Shown here: positions 5,710 to 57,758 of the stretch, in pieces
Numbering within the stretch: position 1 is the stretch's first letter
Layout of the letters: the number at the start of each line of letters is the position of its first letter
Assembly: GCF_006716865.1 (NCBI RefSeq)
Contig: NZ_VFPT01000003.1
Coordinates: 62,001 to 126,000, forward strand
DNA length: 64,000 nt
Source of the DNA: Roseinatronobacter monicus
Lineage (GTDB): Bacteria; Pseudomonadota; Alphaproteobacteria; Rhodobacterales; Rhodobacteraceae
Direction: 5' to 3'
Translations under genes and position numbers: made by a program
The notes under the pieces: generated by a model
Told to the model about the DNA's origin: nothing
The model's input: only the letters and a program-made list of their open reading frames with translations
Databases searched by the model: none

Positions 5710-5710
5710 A

Positions 5711-6340: not shown

Positions 6341-6354
6341 GCGGCTTAGGTGAA

Positions 6355-13840: not shown

Positions 13841-13918
13841 CTGTTTTCAGACAGCAAAAAGATACCGGTCACCGAAATCGGTGTTGCAGTGATTCGATTT
13901 TTTGGGTACCAATAGATT

Positions 13919-13972
13919 GCGAGTAAATCGGGACCCTCTGGAGTGCTTCACCGCCTTCGGGGGGTTTCTTTT
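13919..13972 (+). ncRNA. Candidate antisense ctRNA between repB and repC
   Basis: The plus strand, opposite to the rep genes, has a promoter-like pair TTGCAG (13884) - 17 bases - TACCAA (13907). About 30 bases later comes a hairpin ACCGCC-TTCG-GGGGGT (13950-13965) followed by TTCTTTT. The position, strand and ~55-nt length fit the incompatibility antisense RNA of repABC plasmids. On the rep strand a CACCG-ATTT-CGGTG hairpin lies about 30 bases before the repC start and may be the element it controls. Confidence 0.6.
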
Positions 13973-14020
13973 GCGCTACGTCTGCCTCCTTTTTGATTGT
14001 TTCGTACCTGCTTGACCATG

Positions 14021-14036
14021 GTTGACCATGGCCAAC
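14021..14036. promoter_or_regulatory. parS-like palindrome 3 (repB-repC gap)
   Basis: GTTGACCATGGCCAAC, a near-perfect palindrome. It is preceded directly by an overlapping half copy (CTTGACCATGGTTGAC, 14011-14026), giving a tandem arrangement just beyond the repB stop. Confidence 0.65.
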
Positions 14037-14069
14037 CTCTTAAATATCAATCACTTATCAATTTAGGCA

Positions 14070-15026
14070 TCACGATTTTTCCTTCCACTCCTTGTAGAGA
14101 CGCTCAAGCTGGGTTTCCATGAAGCTGATGAATCCGCGTTCCTTTTTGTCGGAGACCTCGATCAAAAGGCGCTGACCTTTGGACCTGAAAGCCACCGAAG
14201 TTGCTGGCATCTTGTTGAGCGGGGCAGGGGAGCGGCCTTTGGTCGAAGGCCCCGCTGCGCCGTGCTGAGCATCTATGACCTTCTGCAGGGCATCTATGAC
14301 AGCGGCGAGTTTTTCGGCTGCACTGCCTTCTTCCGGAACAAGTGAAAGGAGAGAACTGTCTGAAGAGGCGTTTTCTGTTTTGACCAAACGCCGTAGTTCT
14401 AGCCATGGGCGCCGGCCTGCTTCATGCGCAGCGCCAATCTTGTAGATCACCGCGTCAGGCACGTCTCGCGCAACGCCAATCAGTTTGCTAAGCGTTCCCT
14501 TGTCGACAGCCAGAACGTCCCCGATCTCTGCTCGGGAGAAGCCTTGATCTTCCAACTTGGCGGCGAAAATGGCTTGTTCAATGAAGCTCCGTTCTAGACG
14601 CGCCGAATTTTCCAGTGCCTGGGAAACAAGCGCCTCGCGCTGATCCATTTCCTTGACATAAGCCTTGACCTTGATCCCAAGTGCGCGGCAGGCGGCAATT
14701 CTGCGGCGTCCATAGACCACCTCATAGCGAGGGCCAGCGCCTCGGCGATAGCGGAGCAGGGCAGGTAGCTGTTGTCCTGATGCCTTGATGGACTCGATTA
14801 GATCATTAAGTCCTTCGGAGACGTCAAAGCGATCCGCGATTTCTGAATCGCCGATCTCGCTGACATCCACATCTTGAGCCGCCTGTGCTGAAACCTGAGA
14901 AAGCACATCTGACATACTCTTCAGGGAACGAGGCGAACTTGCATCCACTTTCGGCTCAGCCTCGGTGGTGATCAAAGGTTTTGAGCCCATTTTCGCCAGG
15001 CTCTTGGCAAGAAGATCACGTTTCAT
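14070..15026 (-). CDS. repB: RepB, ParB-type partition protein of repABC
   Basis: A 318-aa RepB. ParB N-terminal nuclease-like domain about residues 50-140 (LNDLIESIKASGQQLPALLRYR, YEVVYGRRRIAACRALGIKV, EALVSQALENSARLERSFIEQA) with an HTH (SRAEIGDVLAVDKGTLSKLI). It should bind the parS-like palindromes around repC and recruit RepA. The start overlaps the repA stop by 11 bases, so the two are co-translated. Length and motifs are normal for the family. Confidence 0.95.
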   Translation of the reverse strand: MKRDLLAKSLAKMGSKPLITTEAEPKVDASSPRSLKSMSDVLSQVSAQAAQDVDVSEIGDSEIADRFDVSEGLNDLIESIKASGQQLPALLRYRRGAGPRYEVVYGRRRIAACRALGIKVKAYVKEMDQREALVSQALENSARLERSFIEQAIFAAKLEDQGFSRAEIGDVLAVDKGTLSKLIGVARDVPDAVIYKIGAAHEAGRRPWLELRRLVKTENASSDSSLLSLVPEEGSAAEKLAAVIDALQKVIDAQHGAAGPSTKGRSPAPLNKMPATSVAFRSKGQRLLIEVSDKKERGFISFMETQLERLYKEWKEKS

Positions 15027-16218
15027 CGGCGCCCCCTCTGCCCCAGGCTGCTTGGATCATCTTTTCAATGTCATTTGAAAAGCTCGTCACCGACTCTAGG
15101 GCTCGCTCATAGGTCTTTCGGTTTTTGGTTGTAGCCAAGTCCACCTCGAAGATTGTTTTCTGCGAGAGGCCAGCTTCGCTGACTGCCGAAGACTTTACAA
15201 AAGGCGTCTTAATCACGCTGTCGCCGAGCAACTGTTTAAGCCATTCAGATAAGTCCTGCTGCGTGCTAATCGCGGTGTCGAAGCGTGTCAGGAGGTAAGC
15301 GAAATTGTCATACGTACCGATGCCACCGTTGGAGTGGAGTACTTCTAGTACCCCCGAAGCCATCGTCAGGAACTGGCTGGCAGAGGCCAAATCGACACGC
15401 TCTGGAATAATGGTCATGAGCAGAGATGTCGATGCGCAAACTGCGCCCATCGTGAGATAGCCTAGCTGTGGCGGGCAGTCGATTAGTACGATGTCATAAT
15501 CGTCTTCGACTTGACGTAGCGAGTCGCGGATTCGATTGAAGAACACAGGCTGTTCTCCGCGGCTCAACGCGGTTGGGGTTTCGGTCTCAAATTCCGAAAG
15601 CATGATCCCGCCCGGCACGAGATCCAGGTTTGGGAAGTAGGTCTTGCGCAGAACTTCCACGATAGGAACCCGGGATGTCTCTCCATCGTTGTAGCGGATC
15701 GCATCGTACAGCGTTCCGCCATGACGAAAGTCAATCTCTGGCTGGTATCCGAAGAAAGTGGTCAGTGAAGCTTGAGGGTCTGCATCGACAAGACACACAC
15801 GGTAGCCACGCAGGGCGAGCCGCATCCCGAGCGTCACTGTGGTCGTCGTTTTGCTGGACCCGCCTTTAAAATTTACGGTAGACCAAATCTGAAGCTTGTC
15901 ATCTTGTCGCCGACCGGGAAGGAACTGAAACGGATCCTTTGCGTTCTGCGCTAGAATGTTGCGAATCTCGAGGATTTTCTCGGCGGAGTACAGGCGCTTG
16001 TTATTCGGTCCTTGTTCGACCTCTGGAATTCTGCCGTCAAAATGCGCCTTGCGCAGATATCCGTCGCTCACCCGCAGCAGCTCACTGACTTCTGCGCTTG
16101 TAAATGACCGGAGGGTCTTCTGTTCCTTTGGTGCCAGAAAGAGCTTCGACATATGCTCAAGGGCCTCTGAAAGCCGCTCTGCGTCTGCCTTGAGCTTGTC
16201 ATGCAACACTGGGTGCAT
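15016..16218 (-). CDS. repA: RepA, ParA-type partition ATPase of repABC
   Basis: A 400-aa ParA/SopA-family ATPase. An N-terminal MerR-like HTH (FTSAEVSELLRVSDGYLRKAHFDGRIPEVEQGPNN, about residues 40-75) is followed by the deviant Walker A FKGGSSKTTTTVTLGMRLA (about 120), the switch motif DADPQAS and Walker B VLIDCPPQLGYL. First gene of the repABC operon. In this family RepA drives segregation with RepB and represses the operon by binding upstream. About 450 bases without genes precede it and should hold the promoter. Confidence 0.95.
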   Translation of the reverse strand: MHPVLHDKLKADAERLSEALEHMSKLFLAPKEQKTLRSFTSAEVSELLRVSDGYLRKAHFDGRIPEVEQGPNNKRLYSAEKILEIRNILAQNAKDPFQFLPGRRQDDKLQIWSTVNFKGGSSKTTTTVTLGMRLALRGYRVCLVDADPQASLTTFFGYQPEIDFRHGGTLYDAIRYNDGETSRVPIVEVLRKTYFPNLDLVPGGIMLSEFETETPTALSRGEQPVFFNRIRDSLRQVEDDYDIVLIDCPPQLGYLTMGAVCASTSLLMTIIPERVDLASASQFLTMASGVLEVLHSNGGIGTYDNFAYLLTRFDTAISTQQDLSEWLKQLLGDSVIKTPFVKSSAVSEAGLSQKTIFEVDLATTKNRKTYERALESVTSFSNDIEKMIQAAWGRGGADET

Positions 16219-28285: not shown

Positions 28286-30171
28286 CCCAACTTCAACAGC
28301 AAAACGTCTAAGTGATTGTTTCTATTAGACCCGAAGGGTCGTTTATGTAACTACCGCGGTGAGGTTCAGGCGATTTGGGGCACGTTCAGTGCTTCAAAGA
28401 GGTCCAGTTGGGAAGGGGTTGGCGAGGAGATTCCGGCGACCGCCCGGTCGGCGATTTTTGCGTTGTGGCGCTGGACCTTGGCGAGAAGTTCCAAGGCGGC
28501 TTTAGGGCTTGCGGCGTGGCCCTTGGCTTTCAGGCGCATGCGCATGACGCGGTAGAGGGTCAGCGCCAGGAAGCAGATGAGCGCATGGGCGCGGATGCGA
28601 TCAGGCAGGCGATGGTGAACTGGGGCGATCTCAATGTCGGATTTGAGGACTCGAAAGCCACGCTCGATATCGGCGAGGCCCTTGTAGCGGGCGACGGCCT
28701 CAGCGGGACTGATGTCCGTGGTGTTGGTGATCAGCGCGAGCGTGCCGTCGAAGAGCTGCGCTTTGGCCACAGCCTCTTCCTCCACCGACCAGGAGAAGCG
28801 ATCGGCGGTCAGGTCGGCCTTGAGGAAGCGCGTCATTTCAGCATCGGCAACCGCACGGGTGAAGCGGCTGTAGGCCCCGCGGTCGGAGGCGCGGCGCCCT
28901 TGGGGTGTGGCCCCTCCGTCCTGGGCGTCCAGCTTGCCCACCATCTTCTCGGCCATGGCCTCGAGCTCAGTGATGCGAGCGCGGCGAGCCTCCCCCTGCT
29001 CGGCGGCGCGCAGAGGGTCATGGGCAACAATCAAGCGATGGCCCGCGAAGGTCGCCTCGGCCAGACCATCCCCATCGAAGGCAAGACCACGGAAAGTCTC
29101 GACCAGTTCACCATAGCGCCGTGCCGGCACGGCGAGGATGAACTCAAGCGTGCGCCCACCTTCCTGTGCCAGTGCGGTGAGGGCGCCGATATTGTCGAGG
29201 CTGAGCAGCCCGCGATCCGCGACCAGAATGACCCGCTCGATGGGAAAGCGCTGCAGCACCGTGGCCAGCATGGCCTGCAGGGTCTTGGTCTCTGCAACGT
29301 TGCCGGGATGGACGGTGTGCATCAGCGGTAGGCCCTCGGCGGTTTGCACCACACCCATGACGAACTGGCGGGCGATGCCCCCGGTTTCCTTGTTCATGCC
29401 ATAGGCGCGCAGGTCCTCCTCGACCTCACCTTCCCCGTGGATGCGGACGGTGGTCAGGTCGTAGAAGACGACCGTGAGGTTGCGATCCACCAAGGGCCGG
29501 ATCTGTTTGGCGAGTTCGCTCTCCACCCGATCAGCATGGTCCATGAGCGCGTCCATGGCACGCAGGAGATGGTGATGCTCCACCTTTTCCGGCATGGCTG
29601 GCATCGCGACCGTGCCCAGCCAGCGCAAGACGCCCAACTTGCTGTTGGGGGCGCAGAGCCGGTTGAAGACCATGGCCCGCACGAGGGCCTCAACATCGAT
29701 CTGCCGCTTGCCGGAGCGCAGCGCCCGTCCGAGCGCGCGGTCAAAACCAAGATCCTTCCAGATCTCATGCAGCGCAAAGACGTCGCCGTAGGAAAGGGCG
29801 CTCTGGAACTCAACCTTAACCTTTTCCTGGACTTCACGCCCCGCGACACGGCTGAGGCCGCGGATCAAGGCGTCCAGGCTGCCGTCCTCCAGTTGGTCGA
29901 CGCGCCCGAGGTTGGCGACGACGCGCAGGCGCGGCTTTCCGTCCGCATTACGGAAGGATTCCATGATCTGCAGGTAGCTGCGGCCGCCGTTGGACGTGAT
30001 GCGCGTGAACATGGAATGCCAAATATCGCGATCCGTCGTTTTATACAAGGCGTTTCATAAACCTTGCATGTAACTACAAGACTTTCGCCACCTTCGAGCC
30101 CAACCAATTGAAATCATTGGAACCAAGGAGCCGAAATCAACGGATTTCGAGCTCCAAGTGTTGAAGTTGGG
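28286..30171 (-). mobile_element. IS1634-family element
   Basis: The inverted ends CCCAACTTCAACA (28286) and TGTTGAAGTTGGG (30159-30171) are flanked by the 6-base duplication ATCACC (28280-28285 and 30172-30177). It is inserted in IS91 copy B. Length 1886 bp with one transposase. Confidence 0.93.
28366..30012 (-). CDS. IS1634-family (IS4 superfamily) transposase
   Basis: About 548 aa from the ATG giving MFTRITSNGGRSYLQIMES, the usual N-terminus of this family; an ATG 12 codons upstream is also in frame. Motifs: VVFYDLTTVRIHGEGE and ADRGLLSLDNIG for the catalytic aspartates, and the late glutamate region GLADIERGFRVLKSDIEIAPVHHRLPDRIRAHALICFLAL. Full length without frameshifts, and both ends and target duplication are present, so it may be active. 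Confidence 0.92.
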   Translation of the reverse strand: MFTRITSNGGRSYLQIMESFRNADGKPRLRVVANLGRVDQLEDGSLDALIRGLSRVAGREVQEKVKVEFQSALSYGDVFALHEIWKDLGFDRALGRALRSGKRQIDVEALVRAMVFNRLCAPNSKLGVLRWLGTVAMPAMPEKVEHHHLLRAMDALMDHADRVESELAKQIRPLVDRNLTVVFYDLTTVRIHGEGEVEEDLRAYGMNKETGGIARQFVMGVVQTAEGLPLMHTVHPGNVAETKTLQAMLATVLQRFPIERVILVADRGLLSLDNIGALTALAQEGGRTLEFILAVPARRYGELVETFRGLAFDGDGLAEATFAGHRLIVAHDPLRAAEQGEARRARITELEAMAEKMVGKLDAQDGGATPQGRRASDRGAYSRFTRAVADAEMTRFLKADLTADRFSWSVEEEAVAKAQLFDGTLALITNTTDISPAEAVARYKGLADIERGFRVLKSDIEIAPVHHRLPDRIRAHALICFLALTLYRVMRMRLKAKGHAASPKAALELLAKVQRHNAKIADRAVAGISSPTPSQLDLFEALNVPQIA

Positions 30172-30177
30172 ATCACC

Positions 30178-30235
30178 GTTTCTGCTGATGCCTTGAACAG
30201 CAGGCCATAGACCGCCTTCTTGTTCCAATGGGCGA
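30178..30235 (-). pseudogene. IS91 transposase copy B, N-terminal-side piece
   Basis: About 58 bases reading IAHWNKKAVYGLLFKASAETV, collinear with copy A (IAYWNKKAVYGLLFRASAETV). The IS1634-family insertion follows on one side and an ISL3 remnant begins on the other, so all upstream IS91 sequence is missing. Confidence 0.8.
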
Positions 30236-30510
30236 TCACTCCGCCCCGTTGGCCGGATGGATCGACGACGCCATCGAGACGGGTATTCCGTCGTTCATGC
30301 GGTTTGCCAGGACGCTGCACCGTGACATCAATGCCGTGCGCAATGCCATCGAACTGCCGTGGAGCAACGATCAAGCGGAGGGCCAAATCAATCGCCTGAA
30401 GACCCTGAAACGCGCAATGTACGGCCGCTCCGGACCAGAACTCCTCAGAGCCCGAATGCTGCCCCTCCGCCACACAGATTGAGGCAGAGCCTCGTTAAGG
30501 GCAAGGCGAT
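30236..30510 (+). pseudogene. ISL3 transposase remnant with right end
   Basis: The C-terminal ~80 residues of an ISL3 transposase (GWIDDAIETGIPSFMRFARTLHRD, ELPWSNDQAEGQINRLKTLKRAMYGRSGPELLRARML, stop at 30482). It is followed by a relative of the ISL3 right end (TGAGGCAGAGCCTCGTTAA). Close to, but not identical with, the intact element at 19885-21622, so it is a separate older copy. Confidence 0.82.
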
Positions 30511-30549
30511 AATAGGCACATACCAGTACGCAATCCGCGATAGCGGAAG

Positions 30550-32619
30550 TTACCTTCGGAGCCGATATAGTCGGTGAAGTATAGCTGGCTCTACATCGTT
30601 CTTTGCTAAATTGAATTGGCCATCTTGCGAGGGCACTTCTGGTAAGTCTGTCGACGCCAGTTCGATCATCTTGAATGGTCGCTTGAAGCGTGATTGTCTT
30701 TGTTGCTCACAAAAGTACTGGAAACGATCCGTAACAACCACCCAGTCTTCTTTTACCTTCGGCTCCAAACGAGCAGCTACTCGAATACTCTTTCCTCCAG
30801 AAATTTGTGGCCCAGTGCCATCATCACGAAAGCGCATCAAGCCAGCGTCGCCTGCGAACCGTAATTTGGCTTCGAATAAGCTTTTAAGCATGTCGTGTCT
30901 GATGTCGTGAACAGCTGAAACGAGTTTCTCCGGCACTTTTCCCTGTAGTAAAATAGAATCTCCGCCGCTAATTTCTGCAAAAACGCCATTATTTGACTTG
31001 GCTCTCTCAACTACTTCGCAAAAAATATCGGGGAATCTCGGTGCGAGATCAGGATCTGCCATGATTTTACTATAGCCAACCACGTCACCCTTAAATACGA
31101 AATCAACATCATTTATCGCATGCCACCTCCGATCGTTTCCAACAATGTTTAGCGGATCGATGTTGTTTAGAAAGTCCTTGTTACGCCGTGAAATCAGTCC
31201 CACAAGAACTGGATGAACAAGATAAAAAGGTGCAGATGGAAGCACGTTCTCTGTCAGGAAGCCCACCTCACCAGGCGCTGGGAAGGACTGGTAGGCCGCA
31301 CGGTTACCTCCCAGCTTCTTTACAATCCCGAGCAAACCGAGCCGATAGAGTGTACAGAACGGATGTCTTTGAACGGTTTCTCCTGAAAATTGGTTAAGTA
31401 CGGCATCATATTCGTAGGAAATCCGAGATAAATCTTTCAGCGTTAGCGTATTCGATGTAATTAGACTGAACAAGATATCTGGACGGAATCCAGGCGTATG
31501 AACTCGCGCCTCTGCCAAGTAGGTTTGGGCAATAAATGTCGCTCGCTCATTAATTGTTTGAGAAACGTGTTCTTCAGTTCGGCGGGATGGCGGGATATCC
31601 GAGATCGCCTTCCCAATGATTGCGATGTCTCTAGGCCGTGACAGGGTGTGCCGCAGCACATAGTCGACAATCGCTTCACTTTCCGCTACATAAGTATTTT
31701 CTATTTCCATAGCATCTAGACCGAAGAATCTCTCAAATTCGTCAGTTCCAATTTGAAATAGTCTATTATCCTCTTCATTTGCGATGTTCTTCTGGAGAAT
31801 TTTAACAAGATCTGTCTTGCTATACCGAAGTGAGACCGTCGACCCCCCAACTTGCGCCGCCATGGGGTCGTTAGCAATCAGGTATTCCATCGCCTCGGAC
31901 CGGATGCTCACCCAGCATTTTATGTGGTTATTTACCCCGTTTATTTCTCTTGCTGCCGAAACAAGCCCGCACTGCGCAAACACCCAGAGTTGGATGTCGC
32001 CGGTGGCGAGCAAGCTTTCAGTTTCCGCATAACTTGCGGCGCTTTCAAAGTACTCATCAACGTTGTCGATGAACAAAGCAAACTGTGAGGATATATTTCT
32101 AATATTTGGTACGAGAACTCGTCTCAGATCCTCCAGAGCAAGAGAGAATTGTTTTCTGGTTAAAGATAGAACACAATCGAATATATCGCATGGACTGGTG
32201 AGTAAATTGTCTATAAATATTTCGCTTAAGACAGAACACTTAAGTCCTGAAACCGAAGTTCCTTCCTTCTTCAAAACAGCAATAGATATGGCTACCTCCC
32301 AAACCTGTTTCCAATACTGTGTGGAATTCAGAAGTGGCCCGAGAGATTTTCTGGAAACAATAGTTGGAACACCAACTGGCTTATCGACTAGCTGATCTTC
32401 TGGGATGTAAGAGTAACCACGTTCAATAAGCGATTGTCGCTTCAATTTAAGGAGAAGAGTCTTGCCAAATCCTTTTGGGCCCGAGACTATATTTGTCTGC
32501 ATTCCAGCGGGAGAAAGAAACGATTGAATTGCAGGTGACGAGATAAGTAGACCTTTGTCAAACTGAGTTATGGTCGATAGGTCGGTAATATCTTTTGCAT
32601 CAACGATCCAAGGTTGCAT
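30550..32619 (-). CDS. P-loop/STAND-like NTPase fused to class III nucleotide-cyclase-like domain
   Basis: The start chosen is the ATG at 32619 (MQPWIVDAKDITDLST), with GAGGGA 8 bases upstream; the longer frame has no such signal. 689 aa. Residues 1-330 form a P-loop NTPase: Walker A GPKGFGKT (47-54), Walker B ALFIDNVDEY (181-190) and an Arg in CWVSIRSEAM. Residues 380-490 look like helical/winged-helix linker. Residues 500-640 resemble a class III cyclase: FVFKGDVVGYSKIM (metal Asp 512), EISGGDSILLQG (Asp 554) and SIRVAARLEP (Arg 617). The usual transition-state Asn is Arg613. No membrane segment. The gene is markedly AT-rich against its surroundings and lies alone between transposon remnants, so it was probably acquired. 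Architecture suggests stress or phage sensing by the NTPase and nucleotide-signal synthesis by the cyclase; this is inference. Confidence 0.75.
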   Translation of the reverse strand: MQPWIVDAKDITDLSTITQFDKGLLISSPAIQSFLSPAGMQTNIVSGPKGFGKTLLLKLKRQSLIERGYSYIPEDQLVDKPVGVPTIVSRKSLGPLLNSTQYWKQVWEVAISIAVLKKEGTSVSGLKCSVLSEIFIDNLLTSPCDIFDCVLSLTRKQFSLALEDLRRVLVPNIRNISSQFALFIDNVDEYFESAASYAETESLLATGDIQLWVFAQCGLVSAAREINGVNNHIKCWVSIRSEAMEYLIANDPMAAQVGGSTVSLRYSKTDLVKILQKNIANEEDNRLFQIGTDEFERFFGLDAMEIENTYVAESEAIVDYVLRHTLSRPRDIAIIGKAISDIPPSRRTEEHVSQTINERATFIAQTYLAEARVHTPGFRPDILFSLITSNTLTLKDLSRISYEYDAVLNQFSGETVQRHPFCTLYRLGLLGIVKKLGGNRAAYQSFPAPGEVGFLTENVLPSAPFYLVHPVLVGLISRRNKDFLNNIDPLNIVGNDRRWHAINDVDFVFKGDVVGYSKIMADPDLAPRFPDIFCEVVERAKSNNGVFAEISGGDSILLQGKVPEKLVSAVHDIRHDMLKSLFEAKLRFAGDAGLMRFRDDGTGPQISGGKSIRVAARLEPKVKEDWVVVTDRFQYFCEQQRQSRFKRPFKMIELASTDLPEVPSQDGQFNLAKNDVEPAILHRLYRLRR

Positions 32620-32867
32620 TTTAACGTCCCTCAATAATTTGACCTCACTTGCTACGGCTGTTGTTTCTTTGGGCACTAATATTTCGACTCCGGTGTTTCG
32701 TACGCGAAATTTGAGCAGGATTAACCGACACCCACCAAGCGCCAAGTTGTTTCAAAGTTAAGTTCGTCTGAATCGGCCTCCGGTTCAAGTGTTTTGTGTC
32801 TTGAAGGTCGTCGGTATTGTTGCAGAAAGGCGGCCTGAGACGTGAGGGCTCCCTTTCCCCTGAGGTT

Positions 32868-33251
32868 CATGCCAGGCGAACGATCTCGGCGGTGCCGAGG
32901 GCATTGAAGCGATTCATGAGCGCGACGCGGATGTGGATTTCGGCGGTTTGGCGGTCGGGGTCTCTCGCGGCGATGCGCTCGCCGAAGGACTTGAGGCCCC
33001 GCATCTTGGCCTCGGCGCGGCTGCGGGTGTGGTATCCGGTCCACCTCTTCCAGAACGCCCTGCCGTAGTGGCGCGTGGCGCGCAGGGTTTCGTTGCGTGC
33101 CTTGGCGGCCGGGCAATTCTCCTTCCACGGTCGACCATTCTTGCGGGTCGGGATGATCGCGGTACGGCCGCGCGCGCTAATGGCGCTGTGGCAGCGGCGG
33201 GTGTTGTAGTCAGACCAGTTCGTCGTGCGGTAGTGGGCTGGCTTGGGCTTA
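32868..33251 (-). pseudogene. IS5-family transposase with internal deletion
   Basis: The frame reads SKPKPAHYRTTNWSDYN, the N-terminus of an IS5-family transposase, directly followed by TRRCHSAISARGRTAIIPTRKN through FWKRWTGYHTRSRAEAKMRGLKSFGERI to the normal end VRLA. The central catalytic part is missing. The join is at a short TACxAC homology (DYN / AYD). There is no start codon in frame after an upstream stop. A dead, deletion-derived copy. Confidence 0.82.
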
Positions 33252-33650
33252 CTTGTGCCGCCCGTCTAACCGCATGGATTCGTGATGTGAATCCCGCGCG
33301 GCGGGAGTTCTGTAACAACGCCAAGGTCGTCCACCGTTGCGAGCATATTCGAAGCTGGGTAGATCGAGCCGCTTTCTTTCAATTTTGTACCCGACTGCGG
33401 CCACATGCATGGCTGCGGCGCTCTTACTCGGTGGATGGCAGCGCGCACAGTGCGCGCCCTTAGAGATGGTGGCCGCTACTTCGTAAAGCCTAATAAAAGC
33501 AGGACACAGTGGCGACTATGATCGTCTGCTTCGTCATTTTCTGCGGCCGTTGCGATAAGAGTTCAATGTCCGCGCATCACGCTCCACTTCGGTGATGCCG
33601 CAAGTGCGAAGAATTTCTGCGCAGGTGTAGCGATCGGCAGAAAGGGGGCG
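33252..33650. other. Non-coding stretch
   Basis: About 400 bases between the IS5 remnant and the end of the methyltransferase-HNH gene. Only short frames without start signals. No clear repeat or terminator was identified. Confidence 0.4.
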
Positions 33651-35369
33651 TTATGGCCGCCATTCTGGCACTTGCTGGTCAGCCCACAACGCAAACCGAC
33701 GAGCCTGAAGACCTGCGAAGATCGGCGCCGGGCCGTCTGCTGTGTCCTCGCAGATCGGTAGCGAAGCACGCGCTTCGACGTGAAATCTCTCAGCGGTGTT
33801 GCGCTGGTGCAGCCATGCTCGTTCCCACCAATCGAAGATTCGATCCATGCTGCTGTCCAGCACCTCGGCAGCAGGCAACCGGTCGCGCTTGCTATGGCGG
33901 TTGACGGTCGGATCGGATGGCAGGAGGTTCCAGAGGTCCTCGCAGGGCCATGCCGCCCAGGGCAGGCAATGGTCGATGTCGAGTCGTCTTTCTGTGAGTT
34001 TCCGACCCGTCCAGACACAGAATACGGCGCTGTCACTTATCAACAGTGCAGCAGTTTTGCGGGCAAAAGCGACGTCCCGGCTGGGCTCGTGCCAGCGCAT
34101 AGAACGGGCTACCAAGGCTGGATCGAGATCGCGTCCTTGGCCCCGGGCATAACCTTCCATCAGGCGCACCCACTCTGCCACCAGCGCCGGCTCGATCCAG
34201 GCGTCATGACGCACCATTGCACGCCATAGATGGAGTGGCACCCGAAGTTCACCGAAGTCCCAGAGATACCCGGCATCTACGAAGAGCCGCGAAGGCGCTA
34301 TACCCGCACGTCCAGTGCGTGTTGGCAGCACCGGTGCCTGCGATCCGGGGAAGGTCATGTAGGTGGCCGGCATCCGCGCGATCGTAACAGCCGCGTCGCG
34401 TAGCGCAGCGTGGAGCGCTGCAGCTCGCATGCCGCTAAACTGCGCTCCCACCCGTAGATCGGATGCTGAGAGCTCAGCGATCCCGTGCCACCCGTCCTTG
34501 ATGAACCCGAGCCCCACGGGCCCGCGATTGCGTGGCATTTGCGGAAGGTCGGCGTCGATCAGGGGTTTATAAAGCCGCAACCAGTTCAGTGCGATGAGCC
34601 CGAGCGGCAAGGCTATAGTATTGTCGTCGATCGGCCGGGCCATACCTTGGGCGCCATCGGCGGCACGAGCCACAGCACGCAACAGAGCAAGCTTGTAGGT
34701 TGCTGATTTGGCGTCGTTGAGAATGACGTGGCGCAGAAGAGGAAGCGCGCCCGTCCCGTCGTCTGGAAGACGCAAAACCAACTGTGCCCAAGAGACCTCG
34801 CCTCTTCCGAGGCGATCGGGGGTATGATCCACGTTTAAGACAGCCACTCCGTGGGCCCGCGAAAGCGCTTCGATCTCAGCGACATCTACTGGATGCATGT
34901 CGCGGTCGGGCGCTGGCGGTCCGAGCCGGAGAGTGATGGTCAGCGTGCCGCCGGGCTTGAGAAGCGTGACCAGTTTGCGAAAAGCGCGGGGGCGGTCACA
35001 GGGCGGAATGTGCATCCAGACTGCCGAAAGAAGGATTACATCAAACGCTGTGCTGAGACGGAATACCGATTCGAGCCCCGGCAGGCTGTCGGTCACCCAA
35101 GCAATGCCAGGCAACGGGTGTCGTCGCTGGCCTTCTGCGCGCATCGTGCCTGAGGGCTCAACCGCAAGCACGCTGTGTCCCAACTTGGCCAGCCAGGCTG
35201 CGTCGCGCCCTGAACCGGCACCCACATCGAGGATGGCGGCAGGCGCCGGCGGCAAATGCGGAACCAGTGCCTGATGGAGCACCGCTGGATCAACGGTCTC
35301 ATAGCGTTCAGCAAGGGCGCGTCCGGCCTCTCCTTCATATCCCCGCGTCGACATTCCCATGAATCTCAC
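33651..35369 (-). CDS. Class I methyltransferase fused to HNH-type domain
   Basis: 572 aa. It begins at a GTG overlapping the upstream gene's stop; ATGs 3 and 5 codons later are alternatives. Residues ~1-190 are a SAM-dependent methyltransferase of the UbiE/BioC type: ILDVGAGSGRDAAWLAKLGHSVLAVEPS (motif I), FDVILLSAVWMHI, LKPGGTLTITLR. A middle region (FIKDGWHGIAELSASDLRVG ... FVDAGYLWDFGELRVPLHLWRAM) is of unknown fold. Residues ~455-505 are HNH-like: CVWTGRKLTERRLDIDHCLPWAAWPCEDLWNLLPSDPTVNRHSKRDRLP. Second gene of a two-gene operon with an HNH nuclease. It lacks the DPPY/NPPY motif of DNA amino-methyltransferases, so its substrate is unclear. A restriction or defence role is inferred. Confidence 0.75.
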   Translation of the reverse strand: MRFMGMSTRGYEGEAGRALAERYETVDPAVLHQALVPHLPPAPAAILDVGAGSGRDAAWLAKLGHSVLAVEPSGTMRAEGQRRHPLPGIAWVTDSLPGLESVFRLSTAFDVILLSAVWMHIPPCDRPRAFRKLVTLLKPGGTLTITLRLGPPAPDRDMHPVDVAEIEALSRAHGVAVLNVDHTPDRLGRGEVSWAQLVLRLPDDGTGALPLLRHVILNDAKSATYKLALLRAVARAADGAQGMARPIDDNTIALPLGLIALNWLRLYKPLIDADLPQMPRNRGPVGLGFIKDGWHGIAELSASDLRVGAQFSGMRAAALHAALRDAAVTIARMPATYMTFPGSQAPVLPTRTGRAGIAPSRLFVDAGYLWDFGELRVPLHLWRAMVRHDAWIEPALVAEWVRLMEGYARGQGRDLDPALVARSMRWHEPSRDVAFARKTAALLISDSAVFCVWTGRKLTERRLDIDHCLPWAAWPCEDLWNLLPSDPTVNRHSKRDRLPAAEVLDSSMDRIFDWWERAWLHQRNTAERFHVEARASLPICEDTADGPAPIFAGLQARRFALWADQQVPEWRP

Positions 35370-43492: not shown

Positions 43493-43774
43493 ATGATGTG
43501 TGAGCGCTCCACCTTGTTTCTGGGTCTCGTGCGGCCTGCGCAAATGCTGGGCTTGCCCATCCTCTATGCGGTGCTCTGGATTTTTGGCTCAGTGCTGATG
43601 CTCATCTGGTCGCAGTCGCTCTGGGCCTTTGCCCTCGCGGCTGCCGCCTATCCCGCACTCTGGTTGGCTGCGCAATGGGACCCGGCCTTCGTCGAGGTCA
43701 TTCGCGTGGTCTCTGAGCACACGCGGCCCACAAAGAACCGCAAAATCTGGAACGGAGATTCCTATGCCCCGTGA
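43493..43774 (+). CDS. virB3: VirB3-like inner-membrane protein
   Basis: 93 aa with the VirB3 layout: LFLGLVRPAQMLGLPILYAV and a second helix LWAFALAAAAYPALWLAA, then DPAFVEVIRVVSEH. It starts 9 bases after virB2 and overlaps the virB4 start by 11 bases. Partner of the VirB4 ATPase at the inner membrane. Confidence 0.88.
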   Translation: MMCERSTLFLGLVRPAQMLGLPILYAVLWIFGSVLMLIWSQSLWAFALAAAAYPALWLAAQWDPAFVEVIRVVSEHTRPTKNRKIWNGDSYAP

Positions 43775-46136
43775 TCTCTGCGCAGGCGCGGCCGCCACGC
43801 ACATCCTGCCAGCTTGGGCCGGGGACGAGGCCCGCCTTGCGCATCATCTGCCTTACGTCAAACTCATCGATGATCACACGATCCTCACGCGCGGCGGCGA
43901 ATACATGCAATGCATCCGGGTCAGCGGGGCCAACAGCTTCACGGCCCCCGATGGCCGCCTCGACAAGACCCGCGCGATCATTGCGGCGGTGATCGCGCAA
44001 AGCGGGGCGGGGTTTTCCTTTTATGTCCACAAGGTCTCGGCCCGCGTGCCGGTGGAGCTGAAGCCCTTCCATGGGGGCGGTTTTGCCGAAGCACTCGACG
44101 CGCGCTGGCAAGCGCATCTGCGCGAGGCGGGCTTGCGCGACCGCACCCTGACCATCACGGTGGTCAAACGCCCCACAGTGCTCGAGCGCCTGCCGCTCAT
44201 GCGCAAAGCGCGCGCGGGGCAGGGGAGCGATCAAAGCCGCCGCCAGATCGCACGGCTCAAAGAGGTGGTGGAGTTTCTCACCCAAAGCCTGACCGAGATG
44301 GAAGCGCGGCTTTTGACCGCCTCTTCGGGCGAGCTGCTGGGGTTTCTGGAATCGCTGAACACGGGGATCGAGGCACCGACCTATCCGCGCGGGTTTCCCT
44401 CCACCATCGCCGATGATGTCGCCAACAGGCGCGTCACGTTTCGCGGCGACAAGTTCCTGATCTCTGGGGGCTCGGGCGAAGACCGCATCGGGCAGATTTT
44501 TACGGTCAAGAACTACCCCAGCCAGACCTGGTGCTCCATGTTCGATGATCTGGCGCTGCCCATCGACATGGTCGTGACCCACAGCTTCACGCCGGTGAAC
44601 TCGGGCGTGATGGGCGACCGCATCAAGCGCCAGATCCGGATGATGCGCGCAGGCGATGATGCTGCCATCTCGCTGCAAAACGATCTGGTGCAGGCCGCCG
44701 ATGATCTGGCCTCTGAACGCCTGATCTTTGGCGATCACCATATGAGTGTGGCAACCTTCGCCGAGAGTGAGCAAAAACTCGACAGTATCGCGGCCGAAAT
44801 CCGCAATATCGCAGCCTCCGTCGGCGTGAAGCTGATGATGGAGGCATACTCGGCCCGCGCGAGCTATTTTGCCCAAAGCCCCGGCAATGCCAGCTACCGC
44901 GCGCGCCGCGCCACGATCACCAATCTCAATTTCGCCGATATGGCCGCACTCCACCGCACGCATTTGGGCAAATCGCGCGCGCGCACCCCCTGGGACACGC
45001 CGATCACGATGTTCCCCACACCCGAGCGCTCGGCCTATCGGTTCTCGTTTCATGAGAAGGGCAGCCCCGCCTCTGAACCCACCAGCGGACATACGATCAT
45101 TCTCGGGCGCTCAGGCTCGGGCAAATCGGTGCTGGCGACGTTTCTGATGGCGCAGGCCCGGCGCACGGGTGCGCGGATATTTGCGTTCGATTACCGCTAC
45201 GGGCTCGAGATGGGCCTGCGCGCGCTCGGGGGCAGCTATCAATCGATCAAGGCCGGCGAGGCCACAGGTCTGAACCCGCTCTGGGTGGAAACCGATGCGG
45301 CAGGGCGCGAATGGCTGACCGATGCGCTGATCAGCCTTCTTGAATCGCGCGGCGCGCAGCTCACCCCCCAGCAGACGCATGCCGTGCAGGCCATCGTGCG
45401 CCGCAATGCCGAGGCCAGTGATCCCTCCCTTCGCAACTGGACGGAATTCGCAGGCCAGTTCCGCTCGGTCGATGATGGTGGCGATCTGGCCGAGCGCGTG
45501 CGGGAATGGACCCCGCAGGGGCGCTTTGGCTGGGTCTTTGGCACAACCCTAGAGGACCGGTTCACATTGGACGGCGATGTGGTGGGGTTTGATCTCACGG
45601 GGCTTCTGGACGCCGACAACGAAACCGCGCGCATGGCGGTGCTGAGTTACATCTTCCGGCGCATCGAGCGCAAGATCGAGGATCGCCGCCCCACCATCGT
45701 GCTGATCGATGAGGCCTGGAAGGCCTTCGACAACAGCTATTTCGCGAACAAGCTCGAAGACTGGCTGGTGACCGCGCGCAAACAGAACACGGTCGTCGTG
45801 ATGATGACGCAGTTCGCCTCGCAGCTCGACAAGTCGCGCGTGGGCAGCACGATCATTCAGGCGCTGCCGACACAGATCCTCTTGCCCAATTCCCGCGCCA
45901 AGCCTGGCGATTACGGCCCTCTCGCGCTCAGCGACAAAGAGCTCGATGTGATGATGAACGCGCTGCCCGCCTCGCATCTCGCACTCATCCGCGATGATCA
46001 AGGTGCACATATCGTCGACGCAGGCCTCGCCCCGCTGGGCGATTATCTCGCCGTGCTCGGTGGCCTCAAATCCGGCGAGGCCGTGGTCGGCACGGATTAC
46101 CGCAATACCCCTGAATTCTGGAGACGGGCGACATGA
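43764..46136 (+). CDS. virB4: VirB4-like T4SS ATPase
   Basis: 790 aa from the ATG at 43764 (MPRDLCAGAAATHILPAWAG) with GGAG upstream; the frame is open further left but reads antisense-like there. The N-terminal CagE/TrbE/VirB domain includes LPYVKLIDDHTILTRGGEYMQCIRVSG. Walker A is ILGRSGSGKSVLATFLMAQ (about 455) and Walker B is TIVLIDEAWKAFDNS, followed by TQFASQLDKSRVGSTIIQALPTQILLPN. It energises pilus assembly and substrate transfer. Intact. The stop overlaps the next gene's ATG. Confidence 0.95.
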   Translation: MPRDLCAGAAATHILPAWAGDEARLAHHLPYVKLIDDHTILTRGGEYMQCIRVSGANSFTAPDGRLDKTRAIIAAVIAQSGAGFSFYVHKVSARVPVELKPFHGGGFAEALDARWQAHLREAGLRDRTLTITVVKRPTVLERLPLMRKARAGQGSDQSRRQIARLKEVVEFLTQSLTEMEARLLTASSGELLGFLESLNTGIEAPTYPRGFPSTIADDVANRRVTFRGDKFLISGGSGEDRIGQIFTVKNYPSQTWCSMFDDLALPIDMVVTHSFTPVNSGVMGDRIKRQIRMMRAGDDAAISLQNDLVQAADDLASERLIFGDHHMSVATFAESEQKLDSIAAEIRNIAASVGVKLMMEAYSARASYFAQSPGNASYRARRATITNLNFADMAALHRTHLGKSRARTPWDTPITMFPTPERSAYRFSFHEKGSPASEPTSGHTIILGRSGSGKSVLATFLMAQARRTGARIFAFDYRYGLEMGLRALGGSYQSIKAGEATGLNPLWVETDAAGREWLTDALISLLESRGAQLTPQQTHAVQAIVRRNAEASDPSLRNWTEFAGQFRSVDDGGDLAERVREWTPQGRFGWVFGTTLEDRFTLDGDVVGFDLTGLLDADNETARMAVLSYIFRRIERKIEDRRPTIVLIDEAWKAFDNSYFANKLEDWLVTARKQNTVVVMMTQFASQLDKSRVGSTIIQALPTQILLPNSRAKPGDYGPLALSDKELDVMMNALPASHLALIRDDQGAHIVDAGLAPLGDYLAVLGGLKSGEAVVGTDYRNTPEFWRRAT

Positions 46137-46300
46137 AAGCTGCCGTATTCTTGCTGATCCTTGCCTCGGTCCTGGCAGGATGTGCCAGCACACCTTCCGC
46201 GCCTGTGCGCTCGGAGTGCTTTCGCGCGGATGGCACCGCGCGGTGCAAGTTCACGCCGCTGCCCGAGCTTTGGGCGCGCGAGGCTGCGCGCGATGCGTGA
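46133..46300 (+). CDS. Small lipoprotein, VirB7-like
   Basis: 55 aa, too short for common gene finders. It begins in an ATGA overlap with the virB4 stop. A lipoprotein signal peptide (MKAAVFLLILASVLAGCAST) with lipobox LAGC is followed by ECFRADGTARCKFTPLPELW, which has two further cysteines. Size, lipobox and location within the operon fit VirB7, the outer-membrane partner of VirB9 that stabilises the core complex, often through a disulfide. It overlaps the next gene by 8 bases. No sequence-level VirB7 identity is claimed. Confidence 0.7.
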   Translation: MKAAVFLLILASVLAGCASTPSAPVRSECFRADGTARCKFTPLPELWAREAARDA

Positions 46301-47465
46301 CAGGCCCTCCACGCGCGCAGCAGCTCTCGCGCATCTTGTCCTCATTGCGGGCTTGGGCGCAGGGGCGGGTCAACCCGCGCATGCGCAAGGTGTGCCGATC
46401 TTTGATGCCGCCCAGGCCATGGAACAGGCCCGCCAGTTTGCCGAGCGGCTGCAAGATGAGGCGCTGCAGATCGGCAAGGGCGACCAGCGCGCCAGCATCG
46501 AGGAGATCAAGCGCCAGCAACTGGCGCAGCTCGATGCGATTATCGAGAGCTCCACGATCTCGGCGCAAAGCATGGGCACCACGATCCAGAGCCTTGAGGC
46601 CGGGCAGGGGGCAGAGAGTGCCGCGACCAGCGTCTTTCCCGACACTGAGACCAGCCTGCCCGCCCGGCAGCTCTTTGGCGATGCGCGCCAGAATGTTGAG
46701 GAAATCATCATTCAAGGCGCGCGTGACACCTATCACCACCCTGGAGTGGCCCGCGCAGGGCTCTCACCCGTGCAATGGCGCGCGCTCTTGCAAGCGCTGA
46801 TCTGGCAGGAAAGCCGCTTCAACCCGGCCGCGCAAAGCCCTGTCGGGGCCTACGGGCTCACCCAGATCATGCCCGGTACGGCCAGTGATCTGGGCATCAA
46901 CCCGGCCTACCGCACGGATCCGCTCTTGCAGGTGCAAGGCGGCGGGCGCTATCTCGCGCGCCGCCTCGATCAGCTCGGGGGCGACATCATCCTGGCGCTG
47001 GCCGCCTATAACGCGGGGCTGGGCCGCGTGCAGCAATATGGCGGTGTGCCGCCCTTTGCCGAGACGCAGAATTACGTCCAGGTGATCCCGCGCAAATACA
47101 ACGAATACTTGCGCCTCATCGGCGGCGAAGACGCGCTTGGCACGATCTCGGCCGCGCATATGGCCAATGCCGAACTGGGCCTGCGCGGCATGGCCGCCAT
47201 CGGCTACGCGGAACTCGGTCACGCCAATATTCGGCATGCGGCCGAACGGCTGGCCGCGATCGTTACACAAGTGGGGCAGGGGGAGGATTGGGCCGAGGCC
47301 CAGGCGCTCAACACCTATGCCCGCGCCGAGATCGGGCGGCTTCTGGTTCTTTCCATGCGCATGCAGGCCGCGCGCGCCCAGCCTTTGAGCGCGCAGCAGC
47401 TGATGGTCATCGCCCAGATGGCCGATGAGAAACGTTTTTCCGATTTGACCCTTGAGGAGTTCTGA
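46293..47465 (+). CDS. VirB5-like protein containing a lytic transglycosylase domain
   Basis: 390 aa from the ATG at 46293, which overlaps the lipoprotein stop and has no Shine-Dalgarno, so coupling is likely. Signal peptide ends near GQPAHAQ. The N-terminus (AQGVPIFDAAQAMEQARQ, then a helical stretch) and the C-terminus (KRFSDLTLEEF) match those of the next gene (AQGVPTFDAQSLTNQIRQ and AFSDLTMPPL). In between sits an SLT domain: ALIWQESRFNPAAQSPVGAYGLTQIMPGTASDLG with catalytic Glu, YLARRLDQLGGDIILALAAYNAGLGRV. This is the operon's second transglycosylase. Probably periplasmic. Confidence 0.8.
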   Translation: MRDRPSTRAAALAHLVLIAGLGAGAGQPAHAQGVPIFDAAQAMEQARQFAERLQDEALQIGKGDQRASIEEIKRQQLAQLDAIIESSTISAQSMGTTIQSLEAGQGAESAATSVFPDTETSLPARQLFGDARQNVEEIIIQGARDTYHHPGVARAGLSPVQWRALLQALIWQESRFNPAAQSPVGAYGLTQIMPGTASDLGINPAYRTDPLLQVQGGGRYLARRLDQLGGDIILALAAYNAGLGRVQQYGGVPPFAETQNYVQVIPRKYNEYLRLIGGEDALGTISAAHMANAELGLRGMAAIGYAELGHANIRHAAERLAAIVTQVGQGEDWAEAQALNTYARAEIGRLLVLSMRMQAARAQPLSAQQLMVIAQMADEKRFSDLTLEEF

Positions 47466-47466
47466 G

Positions 47467-48333
47467 ATGCGCCCTGCGTATATGTCATCCCTGATCGCAG
47501 CCCGTCCGAGAACGGCCATGACCGCACGCGCGCGAACCAGCCGTTTTGCTGTGGCAGCGGTGCTGGGTCTTGCCCTTGCACCCCTCACAGCCCTCGCGCC
47601 CACAGCTGTTCTCGCCCAAGGCGTGCCGACATTCGATGCCCAAAGCCTGACCAACCAGATCCGCCAGCTTCAGCATATGCTCAATGATCTCGGCATTCAG
47701 ACTGACCAGCTCGACGCGCTTTTGGAACAGGTCAACCTGCTCGGGGACCAGTTGTCCCAGTTGCAGGACATCTACGGCATTCTGACCAGCCAGAACCCGA
47801 TGTCGCTCCTGATGGGCGGCGATCTCGATTGCCTGTTGCAGCAGGATTTCGCGAGCCTCACCGGCGTGGTCAGCAGCCTCTCGCAAGGCGATTTCATTGG
47901 GGCGCTCTCGGCGGGCTGTGGAGATATGGCCGCTTCCGTCGAACAGGTACTGACCAGCACAGGCCTCTCACCTGCCATTGTCCAGCAACTCTCGCAATCC
48001 GACGTCACGGGCGCGCGCAGATTGGGCCAGCAGGCCTCAGCCGCGGCGATGTCGAGTGCAGCGGCGCAAAGCGCGCATGAGCGCTCGAACACGAGCGTCC
48101 GGCGCATCGAGATCATGGTGGGCGAGATCGGCAATACCCAAGGGATCAAGGAATCCGTCGATCACAACACGCTGGTCACAGCAGAGATTGGCATCATCCT
48201 GTTGCAGATGCTCGAGCTGCAGGCCGCCCAGACCATGGCCGATGGCGTGGCGGGGGTTGCAACCGCCGCCCAGCAGGCCGAAGAACAGGCGTTTTCCGAT
48301 CTGACCATGCCGCCCTTGCAGGTGCAGCCATGA
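47467..48333 (+). CDS. virB5: VirB5-like minor pilus protein
   Basis: 288 aa from the ATG at 47467 with GGAG upstream. A long N-terminal leader ends in a signal peptide (VLGLALAPLTALAPTAVLAQG). The mature part is almost all helical (LTNQIRQLQHMLNDLGIQTDQLDALLEQVNLLGDQLSQLQDIYGIL), as in VirB5/TraC proteins, and contains two cysteines. Located between virB4 and virB8 as expected. VirB5 sits at the pilus tip. Shares end motifs with the upstream transglycosylase-bearing protein. Confidence 0.8.
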   Translation: MRPAYMSSLIAARPRTAMTARARTSRFAVAAVLGLALAPLTALAPTAVLAQGVPTFDAQSLTNQIRQLQHMLNDLGIQTDQLDALLEQVNLLGDQLSQLQDIYGILTSQNPMSLLMGGDLDCLLQQDFASLTGVVSSLSQGDFIGALSAGCGDMAASVEQVLTSTGLSPAIVQQLSQSDVTGARRLGQQASAAAMSSAAAQSAHERSNTSVRRIEIMVGEIGNTQGIKESVDHNTLVTAEIGIILLQMLELQAAQTMADGVAGVATAAQQAEEQAFSDLTMPPLQVQP

Positions 48334-49007
48334 GGGGGTTTGCGCGCCGCGCGCCAGCACTCCCCGATATCGGCGAGACTGTCACCGAAGAGCTGGTGTT
48401 CGGGGCGCTGCGCCGCGAACGGCTCTGGCAGGTCATCGCACTCAGCGCCACAGGCTTTGGTGCCGTGATGGGTCTTGGCATGATGCTGGTCGCCATCAAG
48501 CACGAGATGCCCGCGCCGCAACTGGTGCCCTTTGACACGGCAACCGGCGCCGCCGTGCCCTGGGCGGAGGTGCGCGCGATATCGCTGCATGAAGAGCGCG
48601 CGGTCACTGATTCCATGATCTTTTCTTACGTGCGCGACCGCGAGACTTTTAATCAGCTCGACAATGATCTGCGCGTGCGTTCGGTGATGAGCCGCTCCAG
48701 CGGTGATGCGGCGGCCAGCATGCGCAGCCTCTGGAGCAGTGCAAACCCGAATTTTCCGCCAACGCGCTATGGGTCTGCCCGCATGGATGTCGAGATCATC
48801 TCGATTGCCCCCCTCTCGGGCAACCGCGCACAGATCCGGCTCCGCAAACGCCTGCGCTCCAAGGAAGGCGATCAGATCGGGAATTTCACCGTCACGCTGG
48901 CCTATGAGTTCGAGCCCGCGGAAGTCCGCGAGATCGCCGATGTCTGGGCCAATCCCTTCGGCTTCAAGGTCCGCGAATACGCTATCACCTCCGACCGGTT
49001 CGAATGA
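48330..49007 (+). CDS. virB8: VirB8-like T4SS assembly protein
   Basis: 225 aa. Short cytoplasmic tail, one membrane helix (VIALSATGFGAVMGLGMMLVAI), then the periplasmic NTF2-like domain of VirB8 (DSMIFSYVRDRETFNQLDNDLRVRSVMS, YGSARMDVEIISIAPLSGNRAQIRLRK, ending NPFGFKVREYAITSD). The NPFGF-type motif is characteristic. The start overlaps virB5 by 4 bases. Assembly factor linking inner-membrane and core complexes. Confidence 0.93.
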   Translation: MRGFARRAPALPDIGETVTEELVFGALRRERLWQVIALSATGFGAVMGLGMMLVAIKHEMPAPQLVPFDTATGAAVPWAEVRAISLHEERAVTDSMIFSYVRDRETFNQLDNDLRVRSVMSRSSGDAAASMRSLWSSANPNFPPTRYGSARMDVEIISIAPLSGNRAQIRLRKRLRSKEGDQIGNFTVTLAYEFEPAEVREIADVWANPFGFKVREYAITSDRFE

Positions 49008-49017
49008 GGATTTTGAT

Positions 49018-49755
49018 ATGAGATTTGCACCCCGGACACTGAGCGCCCCGACGCGCGCGCCAATAAAACTCGCGGCCGGCACAGCCATTGGCCTTCTGCT
49101 CCTCATGGGCCCGCTGGCCGCCGAGATCACCCCGCGCGCGGGCCCGCATGATGCCCGCGTGCGCGATGCCATCTATGTCGATGGGCAGGTCTATAACCTC
49201 GTCCTGATGCTCGAGCGCGTCACCACAGTGGAGCTGCCGCGCGGCGAAGAGATCGTCTCGGTCGTGGCCGGTGACACGCAAAGCTTCGATTTCGACGCGG
49301 TCCCCGGGGGGAGGGCCTTTGTCATCAAGCCCAAACGCTCAGGCGCACGCACCAATATCACTGTCTTCACCAACCGGCGGACCTATTATTTCGTGGCCTC
49401 GGCCTCCCGGAACACGGCCTTTTATTCGGTGCGTTTCACAGTGCCTGCGGATCAGACCCGCGAACGCGGCGCGCGCGTGCCCGAGCACCGCGTGATCAAC
49501 ACCCGCTATGGCGGCAATGCCATGACCGCGATCACGCCCGAAGAGGTCTGGGATGACGGGACCTTCACCTATTTCCGCTTTGCGACCGCACGCGAGCTGC
49601 CCACGATCTTCGTGATCTCCGACGGGATGGAGCGGATCGCCAATGGCCAGGTCCAGCGCGATGGCACGGTCCGCGTGAGCGGCACCAGCCCTTATTGGGT
49701 CTTGCGGCTGGGCCAGATCGAGACCGCCATCGCCAATCTGGGAGCGCGGCAATGA
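49018..49755 (+). CDS. virB9: VirB9-like outer core protein
   Basis: 245 aa. The start ATG at 49018 has GAGGA upstream; sequence further left in this frame is antisense-like. Signal-like leader (AAGTAIGLLLLMGPLAAEI). The VirB9/TrbG domain includes FVIKPKRSGARTNITVFTNRRTYYFVA and PEEVWDDGTFTYFRFATARELPTIFVISDG. It forms the outer-membrane core with VirB7 and VirB10. The stop overlaps virB10 by ATGA. Confidence 0.93.
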   Translation: MRFAPRTLSAPTRAPIKLAAGTAIGLLLLMGPLAAEITPRAGPHDARVRDAIYVDGQVYNLVLMLERVTTVELPRGEEIVSVVAGDTQSFDFDAVPGGRAFVIKPKRSGARTNITVFTNRRTYYFVASASRNTAFYSVRFTVPADQTRERGARVPEHRVINTRYGGNAMTAITPEEVWDDGTFTYFRFATARELPTIFVISDGMERIANGQVQRDGTVRVSGTSPYWVLRLGQIETAIANLGARQ

Positions 49756-52141: not shown

Positions 52142-52614
52142 AACATGCCATCCTTGGCCTTGCGCTCTTTCTCGCCATGCCTGTGCTCGCGCAGACCGTG
52201 CCAGATCTGAATGATCTTGACCCGAACACCCTGCCGCCTGCGCCCGCGCAGGGCAACGGCCTCGATCTGACCGTCCCAGAGCTCTACACCGCGTCAGAGC
52301 CCGACCGCGAGATCAATGGCTGCATCGTCCCCGGACGCCCCGATTGGCTGATCGAGATGAACCCCGCGACGACGAATGAGCGGGCGATGGTACATGCGAT
52401 CTACAATCTGCGGTGGTCCAAAGCGGTCGTCGAGAATGAGGATTGCGCCTGCGCCCTGCGTCATCCCGATTGGGCAGAGGTCATTGCAGAGTTCAATGAG
52501 AGCTACGCCGGGATGGACAAGCAGCAAATGTTTGATGCGCAGATGTCATATCGTTCCATGCATCATCAGCGCGTTGCGCGTGCTCGTGCCATTTGCCGTG
52601 AACAAAGCCGCTGA
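52138..52614 (+). CDS. Secreted T4SS-linked protein, 158 aa, unknown
   Basis: Signal peptide MKHAILGLALFLAMPVLAQT. The mature part has conserved-looking cysteines (GCIVPGRPDWLIEMN, EDCACALRHPDWAEVI, ARAICREQ). It starts in a 4-base overlap with virB11 and is followed by virB6 after 2 bases, so it belongs to the operon. Probably periplasmic. Not a VirB protein I can name. Confidence 0.7.
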   Translation: MKHAILGLALFLAMPVLAQTVPDLNDLDPNTLPPAPAQGNGLDLTVPELYTASEPDREINGCIVPGRPDWLIEMNPATTNERAMVHAIYNLRWSKAVVENEDCACALRHPDWAEVIAEFNESYAGMDKQQMFDAQMSYRSMHHQRVARARAICREQSR

Positions 52615-52616
52615 AC

Positions 52617-57726: not shown

Positions 57727-57758
57727 TCATTGCTCCCTTTTGGTTTCAGAATTTTGCG

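Follow-up and report, generated by a model that had tools for sequence, protein, structure and literature searches.

A possible one-gene antiphage device: an Sll1717-family ATPase fused to a predicted class III nucleotide cyclase in Roseinatronobacter monicus

Introduction

What purpose is served by a bacterial gene that joins an ATPase to a nucleotide cyclase and lies between the remains of transposable elements? The gene considered here encodes 689 amino acids on a 64,000-nucleotide stretch of Roseinatronobacter monicus DNA (contig NZ_VFPT01000003.1, positions 62,001 to 126,000), which we call the window. Its N-terminal half belongs, by sequence, to the Sll1717 family of P-loop ATPases, and for its C-terminal domain the prediction is a class III nucleotide cyclase fold. 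We favour the explanation that this fusion is a one-gene device against phage, whose cyclase infection would switch on, at a confidence that falls a little short of even. An initial annotation of the window had read the gene as a STAND-like NTPase fused to a class III cyclase-like domain; the open reading frame (ORF), its strand and its coordinates were given correctly, and the two-domain anatomy is supported. The open-licence literature searched contains neither a description of this protein nor the word Sll1717, which is not proof of absence.

The cyclase domain and its active site

The structure model of the C-terminal domain shows the class III cyclase fold, and the outcome named beforehand as fatal to the initial annotation, a stretch at residues 500–640 without this fold, did not arise. 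A profile of 51 members run against the PDB sequences gave 24 distinct matches at E ≤0.01, all of them cyclases (best 1.5e-9). The relationship is distant, in that the query alone matched nothing in the PDB sequence search and only the profile reaches cyclases; the query alone likewise has no cyclase match in Pfam, where one of the 51 members reaches Guanylate_cyc (E 0.0031).

The motifs KGDVVGYSK, SGGDSILL and SIRVAARLEP, on which the cyclase had first been recognised, are all present, and D512, D554 and R617 are retained (Table 1). Conservation was counted over 63 family domains, made up of 62 of the 72 homologue rows (query included) and the cyclase-type locus L056. The other ten rows have no C-terminal domain (P0018, P0019, P0066, P0071) or carry other outputs (P0059, P0067-P0070, P0072). 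Many of the 63 are near-copies, hence a second count over 31 groups at 60% identity. The reference set holds 28 of the 29 cyclase loci from a search of class genomes, L021 being dropped for an internal stop; these are named cyclases by profile match only, and the three checked (L005, L006, L010) all match solved cyclases by sequence. Both metal-binding aspartates are kept in 31/31 groups and the catalytic arginine in 29/31, the exceptions (P0017, P0065) being shorter copies in which the motif is unreadable. R587 is present in all 63 domains and all 31 groups.

Two other positions depart from the standard active site. At the position of the transition-state asparagine, the 63 domains hold Leu (30), Arg (27), Gln (2) and Val, Lys, Ala or a gap (one each), and never Asn; by groups the order is Arg 20, Leu 5, Gln 2 and again one each of Val, Lys, Ala and gap. 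The lysine that reads the purine is found in 0 of 63 family domains vs 9 of 28 reference cyclases. The replacement of asparagine by arginine had been correctly observed at R613, although the loss of the asparagine is a trait of the whole family and no defect of the window copy. A match of K673 to the phosphate-binding lysine of other cyclases is at best tentative, since most references have a gap at this position. Taken together, the residues fit an enzyme that would keep its metals and arginine, whereas the residue that reads the purine and one ligand of the transition state would be gone.

It has been suggested, as an alternative in the initial annotation, that the cyclase has become a nucleotide-binding module. 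In its full form this explanation holds that the domain is catalytically dead and serves the ATPase by binding nucleotide or by dimerising, and it draws on the absence of both Asn and purine-reading Lys from all 63 domains and on passages of Kaur et al. (PMC7159879) in which several cyclic nucleoside monophosphate (cNMP) cyclase domains fused to vWA conflict-system components are inactive. We regard it as quite improbable, since the catalytic residues are near-invariant (both metal aspartates throughout, the arginine in 61/63 domains and 29/31 groups) and the domain is constrained as the ATPase is. Between the window copy and its closest relative, from locus L034, the ratio of nonsynonymous to synonymous differences (pN/pS) is 0.099 for the cyclase, 0.117 for residues 1-380 and 0.145 for the segment between these two, pN/pS alone being reported because pS is near saturation for this pair. 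By this comparison, purifying selection acts on the cyclase domain no less strongly than on the ATPase. Loss of the asparagine does not by itself imply inactivity, because Rv1900c and several established cyclases have no equivalent of it, as part of Ramakrishnan et al. (PMC4886424) describes.

The ATPase half and its exchangeable outputs

The query scores 85 bits with ATPase_Sll1717 (NCBIfam NF047389) against a curated cut-off of 75 (E 5.7e-24, residues 25-437), and 39/39 members of alignment A2 match the same model, which describes the ATPase only, over 454 positions. The Walker A and Walker B motifs named in the initial annotation are both present (Table 1). Likeness of the ATPase core is to NLR, Cdc6 and SSO1545 proteins. 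STAND proteins usually have a repeat superstructure as their sensor; the models contain no repeat array, and about 120 residues (381-503) separate the ATPase core from the cyclase. The label STAND may suit the protein in part only: a repeat sensor has no place in the models, and the family that can be named is ATPase_Sll1717. A chance match to motifs is rejected, the ATPase standing above the curated cut-off and the C-terminal domain being a cyclase by model and profile; decay of the window copy is rejected as well.

Domain matches show that related ATPases carry other output domains. A C-terminal TIR_2 domain (Pfam) sits on the same ATPase at L003 and in P0067-P0069, a kinase together with TIR_2 accompanies it in P0072, and a related ATPase at L069 has a C-terminal SEFIR domain. 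The C-terminal stretch of L072 matches PDC-M36A, and L035 has an N-terminal Nuc_deoxyrib_tr-like segment just below the cut-off. In a tree of 72 ATPase rows, from which six short or truncated homologues were left out and to which six rows from loci were added, the outputs cluster and the best tree needs four changes. We claim no number of output exchanges, because the starred branches require no more than a single change for each group and the tree has several long branches.

Several further forms were seen among the relatives. The C-terminal halves of P0059 and P0070 appear by eye to be a Rossmann-like NAD-binding extension, similar to mannitol-1-phosphate dehydrogenase, in place of the cyclase; Pfam gives no match to this extension. 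L056 (1429-3699, GC 0.36) is a cyclase-type member with an extra C-terminal Recombinase-like stretch (PF07508, E 2.8e-4). Longer Sll1717-type ATPases, of ~880-960 aa, occur at loci such as L048 and L060; genomes of one class of the phylum contain several each, and both of those scanned (L048, L060) have a ParA/MinD-like domain at the N-terminus.

Loci of relatives and distribution

The closest relative (84%) lies in the IMG/VR contig L034. Neighbouring ORFs for the PADLOC and Pfam scans were chosen by hand at every locus; here, PADLOC found PD-Lambda-4_A near the gene at E 7.2e-283 (component A alone considered) and an HNH match. Also nearby are a RES ORF, which has no PADLOC match (three L034 neighbours scanned), a HigB-type toxin with its helix-turn-helix partner (Pfam) and a relaxase match just below the cut-off, followed by a phage lysozyme. 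Terminase, portal, tape-measure and integrase-like ORFs were recognised by eye. A defence setting is supported for this relative, and the homologues are not confined to housekeeping surroundings; such confinement would have counted against the initial annotation. DNA similarity between the window and L034 is limited to the gene (30581-32622, 72.7%) and the flanking DNA is unrelated, from which the gene looks like a one-gene unit.

In another genome, a CBASS set (cyclase, HORMA, TRIP13 and NucC) lies next to an ATPase of the Sll1717 family that has a Nuc_deoxyrib_tr-like segment at its N-terminus (L071, 1767-9761); the six neighbours scanned gave this set and WYL, with ORF 4980-6449 unmatched. 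At L072 one of two scanned neighbours is PD_DExK and the other has no match, and at L068 the four scanned comprise one with ZacB and partial PDC-M27B, one with 2OG and two without a match. Neither of the two neighbours scanned at L069 matches. Other loci speak against a defence role: no defence gene was recognised among three scanned neighbours at L003 or by eye at L002, and none was recognised at L070, where a primase-like ORF alone was scanned. That ORF matches reverse-transcriptase and DnaG-like models, which in our reading a housekeeping primase would also do.

The loci L070 and L002 would suit an ordinary signalling cyclase under ATPase control, outside defence. Cyclase-ATPase fusions of that kind are familiar in soluble adenylyl cyclase and in mycobacterial cyclase-ATPase regulators, and 10/72 homologue rows are named by their source just 'class 3 adenylate cyclase'. 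We nevertheless consider this improbable. The family is rare and patchy: among 385 genomes of the taxonomic class, with at most three candidates per genome scored, and among 394 genomes of the taxonomic family, nothing but the window's own copy matches over the full length, the latter set giving one further weak match to the cyclase region. The gene lies between insertion sequence (IS) remnants beside a repABC replicon, its nearest relative is in a phage-like contig, and related ATPases have TIR, SEFIR or kinase-TIR outputs.

Wider searches gave no match in phage records; in plasmid records, three queries all led to one pair of distant ATPase relatives, and in genome contigs there were two loci, one ending at a contig edge and one TIR-type. 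Viral contigs yielded the single locus L034 with alignment A1 and none with P0020, P0012 or P0057, and a homologue search with A2 found no members beyond the first search. Residues 498-689 retrieved the query and two close relatives only, a search too insensitive to judge the cyclase subtype on other sensors because it missed known members. PADLOC gave nothing significant for the query (best E 0.027) and one weak match, to Cas3b (E 0.0093), among the 51 members.

Location of the gene and the search for a partner

Table 1. Features of the gene and its flanks, in window coordinates.
Feature	Residues	Position	Strand	Evidence or conservation
ATPase-cyclase fusion gene	689 aa	30550..32619	-	ATG at 32619, stop at 30550; intact ORF
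ATPase core	1-380	31480..32619	-	
Walker A GPKGFGKT	47-54	32458..32481	-	G50, G52, K53, T54 invariant in 51 aligned members incl. query
Walker B FIDNVDE	183-189	32053..32073	-	D185 invariant; D188, E189 at least 90%, 51 aligned members
Segment between ATPase core and cyclase	381-503	31111..31479	-	secondary structure of models
Class III nucleotide cyclase domain (predicted)	504-689	30553..31110	-	
First metal Asp codon	D512	31084..31086	-	63/63 family, 28/28 reference cyclases
Second metal Asp codon	D554	30958..30960	-	63/63 family, 28/28 reference cyclases
Codon at transition-state Asn position	R613	30781..30783	-	N in 0/63 family, 23/28 references
Catalytic Arg codon	R617	30769..30771	-	61/63 family
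GAGGG, possible ribosome-binding site ahead of ATG		32628..32632	-	sequence reading
ISL3-type transposase remnant		30231..30520	.	85.2% match with plasmid DNA that is annotated as ISL3 family transposase
IS5-type transposase remnant, opposite side		32812..33322	.	85.6% match, in two pieces, with plasmid DNA that is annotated as IS5 family transposase
IS1634 transposase, further out on ISL3 side		28345-30029		
repABC-type replicon		12653-16218		~85% identical to rep regions of two Gemmobacter plasmids

The ATG was taken as the start because the 84% relative P0002 is likewise 689 aa long and GAGGG comes just before it; upstream, the frame stays open as far as TTG at 32745. The AT-rich character noted at the outset holds, with GC of 0.45-0.47 in three 1-kb intervals within the gene against ~0.57-0.66 elsewhere at 20-45 kb (gene edges excepted), and GC at third codon positions of 0.43 vs 0.49-0.79 in other ORFs at 20-40 kb (ORFs kept by length). 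Rfam at gathering thresholds had no match in 29000-34000, and a promoter and terminator scan found 1 and 4 vs 3.0 and 3.3 in shuffles.

The flanking ISL3 and IS5 remnants are as the initial annotation described them, and the gene, on a contig of 154,656 bases, probably sits on a plasmid. At 1-4 kb from it there are two ORFs of interest, one HNH_2 and the other methyltransferase-HNH. PADLOC on six chosen window ORFs gave PDC-S02, the type IIG pieces, HNH and partial mad2 on the methyltransferase, with one unmatched. Further off, at 55601-60546 (23-28 kb from the gene), are the PDC-S02 (Mrr-like) ORF and two type IIG restriction enzyme-methyltransferase pieces, between which ORF 58932-60044 appears by eye to be a transposase; an ORF run at 43629-54127 resembles, also by eye, a VirB-type secretion system.

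No receptor gene was recognised beside the window copy (translations read by eye, Pfam and PADLOC on two neighbours), nor among the scanned L034 neighbours. The earlier remark that no effector is adjacent stands as far as receptors go, but possible defence genes are 1-4 kb away. The main rival to our explanation is a two-part alarm, similar to Pycsar with sensor and cyclase fused, in which the cyclic nucleotide would activate a receptor whose gene lies at some other place in the host. Loss of the purine-reading lysine would fit another base, Pycsar cyclases have the same two metal aspartates (portions of PMC11224242), and four proteins with a cNMP-binding domain (PF00027) are present on contig C1, the presumed chromosome; none was found on the gene's own contig. 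These four are at most putative receptors, the two nearest copies are flanked by unrelated DNA, and a plasmid copy and a prophage copy would face different hosts. We put this alarm at no better than unlikely, yet well above the dead module or ordinary signalling.

A proposed mechanism

In the one-gene device that we favour, the ATPase half would sense a phage-linked cue and oligomerise. Class III active sites form at a dimer interface, so that oligomerisation could pair two cyclase domains; AnPycC, for example, is a head-to-tail dimer with its catalytic centres at the interface, as described in part of PMC11224242. The paired domains would then convert a nucleoside triphosphate, with a base choice that may be relaxed or non-purine because the purine-reading lysine is gone. 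The reaction itself might be the effector, through nucleotide drain or product flooding, since the two nearest copies share no flanking partner gene and relatives have TIR or SEFIR at the same C-terminal position. TIR and SEFIR domains often act directly. A more specific version, which we offer tentatively and hold to be less probable than the device as such, would make the Sll1717 ATPase an immune sensor scaffold with exchangeable output, fitted here with a cyclase of rebuilt pocket whose non-standard cyclic nucleotide or pool drain is the killing step, free of any receptor.

With ATPase sensor and cyclase in one compact protein, sensing and signal output could be tested in a single purified polypeptide. 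An unusual product or substrate is predicted from the missing Asn and Lys, and the relatives in which this ATPase is joined to TIR, SEFIR or further outputs offer a natural domain-exchange series on what the ATPase senses.

Comparison with known systems

The gene product has the predicted fold and the sequence relationship of class III cyclases, with the two metal aspartates and the catalytic arginine; the transition-state asparagine and purine-reading lysine, common and not universal in the class, are both absent. Compared with Rv1264 and Rv1900c, the family has mostly Arg or Leu for Asn and no purine-reading Lys, and its cyclase follows an Sll1717 ATPase in the same protein.

Defence cyclases (Pycsar, CBASS, type III CRISPR) are generally paired with separate receptor-effectors. 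Judged from sequence and model, the likeness to Pycsar (PycC with PycTM or PycTIR) would lie in the class III fold, a possibly non-purine base pocket and a defence-like setting; here, however, the ATPase sensor is in the same protein and an adjacent cyclic-pyrimidine receptor gene was not recognised. To our knowledge, little has been established about phage sensing by Pycsar cyclases.

Avs and bNACHT proteins likewise combine an ATPase sensor with exchangeable effector domains, in the order N-terminal effector, central STAND and C-terminal repeat sensor. In the present family the effector is mostly C-terminal, the ATPase is N-terminal and of another family, and there is no C-terminal repeat sensor.

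The general idea of a cyclase as conflict-system output is already in print, with cNMP cyclase domains, certain inactive ones included, described in passages of Kaur et al. (PMC7159879) as signal-generating outputs of NTP-dependent conflict systems. In the vWA-MoxR-VMAP systems, according to the same passages, the cyclase is similarly swapped with peptidase, TIR-like and other outputs on an NTPase-dependent system; those systems are multi-gene and use other NTPases, whereas here one gene carries an Sll1717 ATPase.
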